This document shows, piece by piece, positions 2,897 through 62,616 of a stretch of DNA of 64,000 nt (position 1 is its first letter; each line of letters begins with the position of its first letter). The DNA is from Thioalbus denitrificans (GTDB lineage Bacteria > Pseudomonadota > Gammaproteobacteria > DSM-26407). The notes beneath the pieces were generated by a model. That model searched no databases. It had not been told where the DNA came from and was given only the letters and a program-made list of their open reading frames with translations. The stretch is from the NCBI RefSeq assembly GCF_003337735.1, contig NZ_QPJY01000015.1, positions 1 to 64,000 of the forward strand, read 5' to 3'. The translations under genes were made by a program, and so were the position numbers.

Positions 2897-3132
2897 ATCC
2901 GCAGATTACGCAGATTACGCAGAAACAACATTAAGTCTGGAGTCGTGTCTTCTCATCCCGAGGCGATCAGTTGCGGAACGCGCTGGTTCCCGGTACGGCG
3001 GTCGCTCAGGGATGGAGTATGTGGCTGCGGGCCGGCCCCATACTCCGGGTCAATCGGTGTAATCCGTGTAATCTGTGGATAATCAAAGCATCAAGTCTTC
3101 TTTCGTGTCCTTCGTGTTGTTCGTGGTTCAAT
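2897..3132. repeat. Modular palindromic intergenic element 1
   Basis: Between trpS and scpA. The left arm at 2897-2922 holds tandem 9-nt units (CGCAGATTA CGCAGATTA CGCAG). The right arm at 3056-3080 holds the inverted, partly diverged units (GTAATCCGTGTAATCTGTGG). A second unit type, TTCGTGTCCTTCGTG, follows at 3097-3132 without a left partner. The core contains its own hairpin, GGAGTATG near 3014 pairing with CATACTCC near 3049. The same units recur in other gaps of this window. No coding potential seen. Confidence 0.75.
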
Positions 3133-16284: not shown

Positions 16285-16558
16285 TTTTCACCACGAAGGC
16301 ACGAAGGACACGAAGAAAAGCGAAAGGCACATGAACCGCAGATTACGCTGATTAACGCAGATTGAGCTGTACTGTGAGGCTGGCGCACCGGTGAGTCAGG
16401 CTCCATATGGAATCGGTGGGGCCTGCGGTCGGTCGTTCTGCACCGCGGCCGTGATTGTCGGGTGGCAATCCATCAATCGGCAATACATCTGCGTAAATCT
16501 GCGTAATCTGCGTATAAACAGCCTTTCTCTTCGTGTCCTTCGTGCCTTCGTGGTGAAA
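16285..16558. repeat. Modular palindromic intergenic element 2
   Basis: Between fumA and the transporter gene. The left side has unit A at 16285-16318 (CACGAAGGCACGAAGGACAC) and unit B at 16336-16363 (CCGCAGATTACGC). A 120-bp core follows, then inverted B at 16486-16515 and inverted A at 16529-16558 (CTTCGTGTCCTTCGTGCC). The arms mirror each other in order and sequence. The core includes TGCGGTCGGT, echoed in elements 4 and 8. It abuts the fumA stop directly. Confidence 0.8.
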
Positions 16559-19870: not shown

Positions 19871-20038
19871 CTAGGAGCCTGTCGGACTTGAGCGATCGTA
19901 GCGAGCCGAGTGGGAGAGCGAGGACAGATGGGGCCGATTTTGAGGCGCATAGTGGGTCTATGTAATGAAAAATCGGCTTCATATGGACCGCTGTCCCGCC
20001 GGCGCAGTAGATCAGCCTCAAGTCCGACAGGCTCCTAG
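19871..20038. mobile_element. 168-bp foldback (MITE-like) element, copy 1
   Basis: The element is bounded by CTAG and has 22-bp perfect terminal inverted repeats (left begins CTAGGAGCCTGTCGGACTTG, right ends GACAGGCTCCTAG). It matches copy 2 at 43835-44002 over the full 168 bp with few differences. It encodes no protein; open frames reading through it are not conserved genes. CTAG at both ends could be a 4-bp target duplication. It sits between prpE and the mutase gene. No full-length parent transposase is present in the window. Confidence 0.8.
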
Positions 20039-23862: not shown

Positions 23863-23938
23863 GTGAGGAGTGAAGGGTGAGGCGCGAGGGGTGACAGGAG
23901 GCTGTTTTGCCTCACCCCTAACACCTCACCCCTCACCG
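23863..23938. repeat. Inverted GGGTGAGG-type repeat between pccB and pccA
   Basis: Directly after the pccB stop, purine-rich units (GTGAGGAGTGAAGGGTGAGG, then GAGGGGTGA, 23863-23893) face their complement (CTCACCCCTAACACCTCACC at about 23911-23930, then CCTCACCG). They could form a long hairpin around GCTGTTTTGC. It resembles the modular elements elsewhere but with a different unit. It may tune the ratio of the two carboxylase subunits. Confidence 0.6.
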
Positions 23939-26956: not shown

Positions 26957-26966
26957 CTTTTTTATA

Positions 26967-27205
26967 TAGACAGGATTAACAGGATTGACAGGATTAATAT
27001 GGTTTCAGGTTTAAGCTATGGGTAACTGGTAACTGGTAACTGGTAACTGGTAACTGGTAACTGGTAACTGGTAACTGGTAACTGGTAACTGGTAACTGGT
27101 AACTGGTAACTGGTAACTGGTAACTGGCTCTTGTCGACCAACCGTATTGTCCGTCGATGACAGATTGTTTCTTGAAATCCTGTCAATCCTGTAAATCCTG
27201 TCTAT
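26967..27205. repeat. Modular palindromic intergenic element 3 (GACAGGATT type)
   Basis: Between meaB and mce. The left arm at 26967-26998 has three 9-nt units (TAGACAGGATTAACAGGATT, then GACAGGATT). The right arm at 27175-27205 has the complement (AATCCTGTCAATCCTGTAAA, then TCCTGTCTA). The core contains a 15-copy heptamer array, listed separately. The same unit type recurs in element 7 near dapD. Confidence 0.8.
27021..27127. repeat. Heptanucleotide tandem array, 15 copies of GGTAACT
   Basis: Fifteen perfect GGTAACT units run from 27021 to 27125, followed by GG. The period is 7, so it cannot be a coding repeat in one frame without changing codons, and no gene spans it. Perfect identity suggests recent slippage expansion. 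Copy number is likely variable between strains. Confidence 0.95.
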
Positions 27206-27645: not shown

Positions 27646-27899
27646 TTCACCACGGAGGCACGGAGGACACGAAGAAAAGACTTTTTATCCGCAGATTACG
27701 CAGATTACGCAGATGTTTTCGTGCAGTTGGATTGTTCTGTGCCTTTCCACCATGGAACAACACTTCCGCGGTCGGTATACGGCATCGCGGTCGTCACATC
27801 CACCAAGTCCGCCAGCAGAAAAACAAATCTGCGTAATCTGCGTAATCTGCGGATAGAGTATTTCGCCTTTTCTCCGTGTCCTCCGTGCCTCCGTGGTGA
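27646..27899. repeat. Modular palindromic intergenic element 4
   Basis: Between mce and a thioesterase gene. Left A at 27646-27678 reads CACGGAGGCACGGAGGACAC; left B at 27687-27714 reads CGCAGATTACGCAGATTACG. The right side mirrors both, with inverted B at 27825-27854 and inverted A at 27870-27899 (TCCGTGTCCTCCGTGCCTCC). Compared with element 2, the A unit has changed from CGAAGG to CGGAGG on both arms together. The core holds CCGCGGTCGGTA. Confidence 0.82.
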
Positions 27900-29546: not shown

Positions 29547-29628
29547 GTCGTCACATCCCCGAATGAGTCGAGCAGAGAGTCAACCGGCTGCCTTCGCGCA
29601 GCCCGAAGTCACCGGAAAAAGAAGATCG

Positions 29629-29810
29629 ACCGCAGATTACGTTGATTTGCGCAGATTGTTCCTGCAATACCAACCTGCAATGTACAGGGCAAATCGTCGG
29701 ATTACCTGCCCGGATGGGTCCCCGTAACCCCGGGGATAAATCACGACCGGGCTCGATGGGCCGCTATCCCCGACGCAAAAAAATCCACGCTAATCAACGT
29801 AATCTGCGGT
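29629..29810. repeat. Modular palindromic intergenic element 5
   Basis: Upstream of the AI-2E gene and downstream of the malonyltransferase gene, both on the minus strand. Left B at 29629-29657 reads ACCGCAGATTACGTTGATTT; right B at 29781-29810 reads GCTAATCAACGTAATCTGCG. The unusual GTTGATT variant is matched by AATCAAC on the other arm. No A unit. Core of about 120 bp without a gene. Confidence 0.75.
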
Positions 29811-29855
29811 GGAAAAGATGTTTTCTTTCCCGCCGCAGAGATCGTGGGGCCTCGC

Positions 29856-30930: not shown

Positions 30931-30959
30931 CTGCGTGCCCTTCGTGACTTCGTGGTGAG
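30931..30959. repeat. Solitary inverted A-type repeat unit
   Basis: CGTGCCCTTCGTGACTTCGT with flanking GTGG is one right-hand A arm of the modular elements, without a left partner, in the gap upstream of the malonyltransferase gene. It may be a decayed element. Confidence 0.5.
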
Positions 30960-39453: not shown

Positions 39454-41139
<1,686 letters not shown>

Positions 41140-43834: not shown

Positions 43835-44002
43835 CTAGCAGCCTGTCGAACTTGAGCGATCGTAGCGAGCCGAGTGGGAGAGCGAGGACAGATGGGGCCG
43901 ATTTTGAGGCGCATAGTGGGTCTATGTAACGAAAAATCGGTCCCATATGGGCCGCTGTCCCGCCGGCGCAGTAGATCAGCCTCAAGTCCGAGAGGCTGCT
44001 AG
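43835..44002. mobile_element. 168-bp foldback (MITE-like) element, copy 2
   Basis: Second copy of the element at 19871-20038. Ends are CTAGCAGCCTGTCGAACTTG and GAGAGGCTGCTAG, with two mismatches in the terminal repeat. The fifth base is C here on both ends, against G on both ends in copy 1. It stops 14 bp after the glnD stop (minus strand), so glnD transcripts would run into it and it may act as their terminator. Confidence 0.8.
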
Positions 44003-62460: not shown

Positions 62461-62616
62461 TTCACCACGAAGGCACGAAGGACACGAAGAAACCTAACGG
62501 ATTGGCGTGCAGTGCATTTCTCGACATGTACGAGCAGGACGACCTTCCGCGGTCAGTGGTGCATTGCGAACGCCTATTCCCCACCCTGTGAACCCTTCGT
62601 GCCTTCGTGGTTCAAT
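62461..62616. repeat. Modular palindromic intergenic element 8
   Basis: Between rnhB and dnaE. Left A at 62461-62491 reads CACGAAGGCACGAAGGACAC; right inverted A at 62592-62616 reads CCTTCGTGCCTTCGTGG. No B units. The core has CCTTCCGCGGTCAGTGG, similar to ACTTCCGCGGTCGGT in element 4, so cores are related too. Confidence 0.75.

Follow-up and report, generated by a model that had tools for sequence, protein, structure and literature searches.

The inverted-arm palindromes of the window (the whole 64-kb stretch of DNA analysed here, contig 15 of a genome of 4.14 Mb in 21 contigs) appear to be related to a widespread and seemingly undescribed element whose arms enclose a GxxExxY gene, a gene that they themselves lack. 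We think it probable that they are non-autonomous members of a repeat-armed element family in which coding members carry one such gene, and, as part of the same reading, that the left and right arms of an element co-change mainly as a set of recognition words and not by base-by-base compensation of pairs.

The palindromes of the window carry A, B, or C arms, alone or in nested combination (Table 1), and a tandem-repeat search resolves each arm into about three units. The preliminary description held that the two arms of an element change together, and this stands in part. The A units of element 2 do agree, with CACCACGAAGGCACGAAGGACACGAAG on the left and right arms alike, and the sister-genome orthologue is identical over the whole element. 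In element 4, whose left arm reads inward as CACCACGGAGGCACGGAGGACACGAAG and whose right arm reads inward as CACCACGGAGGCACGGAGGACACGGAG, the CGGAG claimed for both arms is present in the outer words but fails at the innermost A unit (left GAAG, right GGAG); and the B variant claimed for both arms of element 5 (...CGCAGATTACGTTGATT on each) holds for the outer two units but breaks down at the third (GCGCAGATT vs GCGTGGATT). A direction of change from element 2 to element 4, implied by the statement that the units of the latter "have become" CGGAGG and CCTCCG, is unsupported because the centres of the two elements are unrelated; with no common centre, they show the separate ancestry that had itself been named as the observation that would count against paired change. 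The flanking genes of element 4, sought for a direct comparison with its orthologue, were not found in the sister genome. The centre of element 3, between its C arms, is a perfect heptamer array, (GGTAACT)15, at 27021-27127, similar to the TAACTGA heptamers of Beggiatoaceae (MacGregor 2015, PMC4679880).

Table 1. Palindromic elements of the 64-kb window and their arms.
Feature	Position	Strand	Remarks
Solitary B arm	2900..2923	+	no partner
Element 2, whole	16286-16558		
Element 2, left A arm	16289..16315	+	CACGAAG words
Element 2, left B arm	16336..16362	+	
Element 2, right B arm	16487..16513	-	
Element 2, right A arm	16529..16555	-	
Element 3, left C arm	26966..26995	+	ACAGGATT words
Element 3, right C arm	27176..27205	-	
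Element 4, whole	27646-27899		
Element 4, left A arm	27648..27674	+	three 7-nt words: CACGGAG, CACGGAG, CACGAAG
Element 4, left B arm	27686..27719	+	CCGCAGATTACGCAGATTACGCAGAT
Element 4, centre	27720..27821		singleton, common to no other sampled element
Element 4, right B arm	27822..27855	-	94% complementary to left B arm
Element 4, right A arm	27872..27898	-	inverted, three CACGGAG words
Element 5, whole	29626-29813		
Element 5, left B arm	29626..29660	+	GTTGATT variant
Element 5, right B arm	29779..29813	-	outer two units matched, third unmatched
Solitary A arm	30931..30957	-	no partner
Element 6, left C arm	40957..40986	+	
Element 6, right C arm	41110..41139	-	
A-only element, left arm	62463..62489	+	three words
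A-only element, right arm	62595..62612	-	two words only

The same arms abound throughout the genome, where we find 74+77 A-arm matches and 65+69 C-arm matches (reversed-pattern controls for the A and C arms give none) together with at least 28+17 B-arm matches; paired arms number about 75 for type A and about 67 for type C, plus type B. Our sample comprised ~53 genome regions with 55 paired A elements, and 27 regions of the sister genome, the sole other genome of the genus available, which is a fragmented MAG, 87% complete and 5% contaminated. The 55 paired A elements are commonest at lengths of 250-280 bp, and a smaller group measures 130-190 bp; most of those of 250-280 bp have a nested layout, in which an A arm is followed by a linker, a B or C arm, and a centre of ~100-130 nt, and then by the mirror image. 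Copies that share a centre tend to be local, since 6/17 such pairs lie less than 8 kb apart vs 10/1468 other pairs (p=6e-9), and 5/6 of these close pairs are inverted relative to each other. We saw no target-site duplication (direct repeats at the element ends average 1.96 nt vs 2.01 nt when shuffled), no site in the sister genome that is cleanly empty (all three candidates are untidy, with remnants or a lost flank), and no Rfam match to known RNA families on the elements.

The link to a protein comes from a 559-bp A-armed element, also present in the sister genome, which lies between the operon genes livF and livG and contains a GxxExxY gene. Its product is a full-score member of the GxxExxY family, scoring 145.6 bits for TIGR04256 (cut-off 35) and 143.5 bits for PF13366 PDDEXK_3 (cut-off 22). 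The genome has two further GxxExxY genes, one between C arms (L069) and one between B arms (L071), whose proteins are about 37-42% identical to the A-armed one. We then describe what surrounds the gene at 80 GxxExxY loci drawn from named genomes across many phyla and at as many as 60 of the class. Specifically, i) 107/120 unique GxxExxY genes with both flanks have at least 2 inverted tandem words on each side and, by a stricter count, 95/120 have inverted arrays in which a ~7-nt word recurs at ~9-nt pitch, while control flanks 0.9 kb further out have inverted word arrays in 0/102; ii) the words include CACGAAG, CACAGAG, CACGGAG, CACCGAG, CATGAAG, CGCAAAG, CGCCAAG, and CACTAAG, and also CACGAAT, CACAGAT, CACGGAA, CACGGAC, CAGGATT, and CGCAGAT, the choice being identical on both arms of a locus and different among loci; iii) the arms of one locus match each other with a score of 18.2 vs 10.1 across loci (0 of 20000 permutations); iv) mapped onto the tree of this short protein, which is poorly resolved with many unresolved forks, the word changes 30 times vs 53.6 when shuffled, none of 200 shuffles being as low, and the distinction between AG and other word endings changes only twice; and v) within the class, A arms and a GxxExxY gene co-occur, the gene being found in 9/14 arm-bearing genomes vs 32/260 others (p=3e-4 without the genus itself).

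The simplest reading of these sequences is that the word would be the cognate site of the encoded protein, which would recognise the arms of a presumably mobile element; co-inheritance together with unit homogenisation could give the same correlation between word and protein. No GxxExxY gene was detected in five class genomes with A arms, one of which (G239) has 16 A-arm matches that may be a relic, may have lost their helper, or may be served by another enzyme. A viral collection yielded one relative only (L384, an IMG/VR contig), a GxxExxY gene with A-like arms of CACGAAG/CACAAAG words. High direct-repeat scores between some GxxExxY flanks look, in the cases inspected, like neighbouring duplicated elements. 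In open-licence papers we found no literature linking GxxExxY to arms, repeats, or palindromes, the name occurring in only two of them and in passing, and no exact string of the arm sequences, exact strings being a weak form of search.

Could the palindromes be moved by a different enzyme, for instance an IS200-like or RAYT transposase, with GxxExxY a passenger caught between the arms? RAYT systems share the organisation of palindromic pairs with a single-copy enzyme gene (PMC3116915), and the genome has 7 Y1 transposase genes; but inverted A, B, or C arrays stand at the ends of 0/7 of these, which argues against IS200/RAYT (Y1_Tnp) genes as the cognate enzyme, and one would not expect to meet a mere passenger enclosed by cognate arms at 95 of 120 loci across phyla. 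We regard this explanation as very improbable.

The GxxExxY protein has 123 residues, and 74 sequences share without exception E27, D67, E77, K79, Q91, and Y95. We take this E, D, ExK, QxxxY pattern to be the PD-(D/E)XK signature together with the QxxxY found among RecB, Cas4, and lambda-exonuclease relatives. A structure model built from the 74 sequences has a pLDDT of 95 and replaces a single-sequence prediction with a pLDDT of 53; the folds nearest to it are LHK-Exo, lambda exonuclease, and Cas4 SSO0001 (probability 0.97-1.00, best E 1e-3). No sequence match was found in the PDB, and PADLOC returned only a weak Cas4b match, to the B-type protein (E 0.0037). GxxExxY is thus predicted to be a minimal PD-(D/E)XK nuclease of the lambda-exonuclease/Cas4 kind: it would share with lambda exonuclease, LHK-Exo, and Cas4 the predicted fold and the catalytic signature, but unlike them has only 123 residues and is encoded alone between inverted arms.

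Whether the two arms of an element change together can be asked across the genome. Among 40 A elements with unrelated centres, 14 deviations from the consensus are common to both arms vs 3.7 when shuffled (p<2e-4), while about 64 of the 92 deviations fall on one arm only; B arms of the same element match with a score of 18.8 vs 15.3 when shuffled (p<2e-4), the outer part better than the inner. The linker between the A and B arms shows no left-right match (p=0.70), and its lengths on the two sides are uncorrelated. In those A elements that vary between GAAG and GGAG, arm agreement exceeds that of between-element shuffles (p=0.02) but is not clearly beyond that of within-arm unit-order shuffling (p=0.17). 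At the 82 GxxExxY loci with three words on each side, unit identity is 0.937 between mirror partners, 0.927 between cross-arm non-partners, and 0.923 between same-arm neighbours, vs 0.721 between loci; the two-base spacers between words match at 0.55 vs 0.42 across loci. In none of these tests did mirrored base-by-base compensation exceed unit identity. The near-equal likeness of partners, non-partners, and neighbours points to a rule of one word per element and not to partner pairing, and, taken with the unmatched A-B linker, favours a shared recognition word over base-pairing.

These figures bear directly on selection for pairing, one of the two causes offered in the preliminary description. 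Under such selection the arms would form a hairpin in RNA (for example, for RNase III excision from operon transcripts) or in single-stranded DNA, and mutations would be compensated singly. Such an explanation can draw on the strong complementarity of the arms (a folding energy of -150.8 kcal/mol, z -17.6, for element 4, values that are trivial for any palindrome), on the operon setting of the livF/livG copy, and on one clear compensated change in place, described below; but mirror partners are hardly more alike than non-partners, shuffling the unit order of the right arm barely lowers the match, spacers match poorly, the A-B linker does not match at all, variants are mostly single-arm, and pairing alone needs no tandem identical words inside an arm. 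We therefore disfavour pairing as the driver and consider it quite unlikely. We would stress that "compensatory-looking" change at distant arms can come from a shared recognition word and whole-element turnover, which advises caution when RNA structure is inferred from co-varying arms.

Comparison with the sister genome, at 27 orthologous sites defined by flanking genes, shows what happens in place. At 16/27 sites the elements have the same orientation, with a mean difference of 0.7% (30 bp in about 4257) vs 4.7% in the flanks; the flanks of the 27 sites are mostly coding, yet the non-coding same-orientation elements are the less diverged. At 6/27 sites the flanks agree but the element between them lies the other way round, 85-99% identical once inverted, and at 4/27 it is replaced by one with an unrelated centre. 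The 27th comparison arises because the sister MAG carries, on another contig, a second allele of one of these sites (L163:4301 and L176:120 vs L113:11915), one of its two alleles being identical to the element of the window genome and the other 86% identical; two alleles of one site in this MAG are standing variation in the population. Because the only same-genus genome is a fragmented MAG, some of the inversions and swaps could be assembly artefacts; beside that reading stands the finding that five of the six inverted elements are also 6-15% diverged.

Among the A cores of the 16 same-orientation orthologues there are five changes, three of them single-arm, and whole-unit gains and losses are all single-arm or unmirrored. 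A mirrored change in the same orientation occurs at L173/L138:1967, where position 16 goes from G..C to A..T in both arms; at L158:1567/L141:1602, positions 16 and 25 change on both arms together with an inversion. Paired in-place change thus exists but is rare, whereas inversion and exchange of whole elements alter both arms in one step. The proposal of paired arm change is in this sense half right: there is co-variation beyond chance genome-wide and one clear case in place, but most deviations are single-arm, and such one-step changes of both arms as the two genomes reveal are inversions or swaps of whole elements, seldom mirrored substitutions.

The other cause offered was that one arm is copied from the other. 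Template switching at short inverted repeats during replication homogenises arms and inverts spacers (PMC8604942, PMC8794818), and several features of our elements agree with it, namely the in-place inversion of whole elements at 6 of the 27 sites, the two positions altered on both arms with inversion at L158:1567/L141:1602, and the greater conservation of elements than of flanks, as reported for proteobacterial inverted repeats. But copying across A and B should match the linker too, and the unmatched linker speaks against one arm having been written from the other over long tracts; unit insertions and deletions are confined to one arm; and arm copying accounts neither for a word that follows the GxxExxY tree nor for the agreement among words inside one arm. 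As the explanation of arm agreement we find it unlikely, while short template switches may contribute.

We prefer the reading of the arms as arrays of a recognition word. Each arm repeats a ~7-nt word about three times, at a pitch of ~9 nt; the word would be the cognate site of whichever GxxExxY type serves the element, and elements are copied, inverted, and exchanged as whole units, events seen by comparison whose mechanism we infer. The same word would stand on both arms because it is the cognate site and because elements turn over whole. The nuclease may act on the arms, possibly once these have become single-stranded or have been extruded at a fork, after which host repair or template switching would copy the element to nearby intergenic sites, or flip or swap it; both the in-place inversions and the local inverted copies would follow from template switching at inverted repeats.

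The nearest parallel is the REPIN-RAYT system (Bertels and Rainey 2011, PMC3116915), in which, as here, i) there are dozens to hundreds of short, non-autonomous intergenic palindromes; ii) a distinct single-copy enzyme gene for each repeat type lies beside or inside the same repeats; and iii) repeat types go with enzyme lineages, with three types and three enzymes in one genome. In REPIN-RAYT, however, the enzyme is an HUH tyrosine transposase and the repeats are single REP hairpins, whereas here a predicted PD-(D/E)XK nuclease of lambda-exonuclease/Cas4 type goes with tandem 7-nt words at 9-nt pitch, and the elements, at ~140-290 bp, have nested A and B arms and occur in many phyla. By analogy, then, the elements would work like REPIN-RAYT but are no member of it; enzyme and repeats are unrelated, and the resemblance is organisational only.

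MITEs, too, are short, non-coding, and of many copies, with inverted terminal arms and gene-carrying relatives that have the same arms, and our elements likewise have inverted terminal arms, with copies of the entire element found at other sites. Unlike MITEs, they show no target-site duplication and no DDE or HUH transposase between the arms; their arms are word arrays, their centres are mostly unrelated between copies, and they invert and are exchanged in place. Quasipalindrome template switching (PMC8604942, PMC8794818) likewise gives arm homogenisation, spacer inversion, and multi-base paired changes in one step, but here whole elements of ~140-290 bp invert or are replaced, words inside one arm agree with each other, and the word tracks the protein.

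More broadly, we are evenly divided on whether these are pan-bacterial selfish elements, spread, inverted, and swapped by a lambda-exonuclease/Cas4-type nuclease that stands alone, without a transposase or recombinase, and whose own short recognition word makes up the arrays that bound them; the word would diversify with the nuclease as REPs do with RAYTs, and large families of non-coding palindromes would parasitise the nuclease. For the widespread GxxExxY family this model offers a concrete role, and the link ties abundant unexplained repeats of environmental bacteria to a protein family. A nuclease with many natural word variants and cognate proteins would be a ready-made system for studying the evolution of DNA specificity.

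There may be a second, parallel class, in which four-helix-bundle (23S_rRNA_IVP) genes go with heptamer arrays. The genome has 4 such genes (PF05635), among them L394, L395, and L392 at C5:217.1k, C1:820.3k, and C1:430.4k; inverted heptamer arrays (GGTGAGG, GTGATGG) flank two PF05635 genes, and (GGTGGCC)n lies upstream of a third. With their 7-nt pitch, these arrays parallel the arms of GxxExxY genes, whose pitch is 9 nt. In the window, a small palindrome of GTGAGG-type heptamers at 23863-23937 is probably a member of the heptamer class. The window also holds, at 19871-20038 and 43835-44002, near-identical copies of another element, of 168 bp, which has CTAGGAGCCTGTCGGACTTGAG inverted ends and the look of an ordinary MITE.
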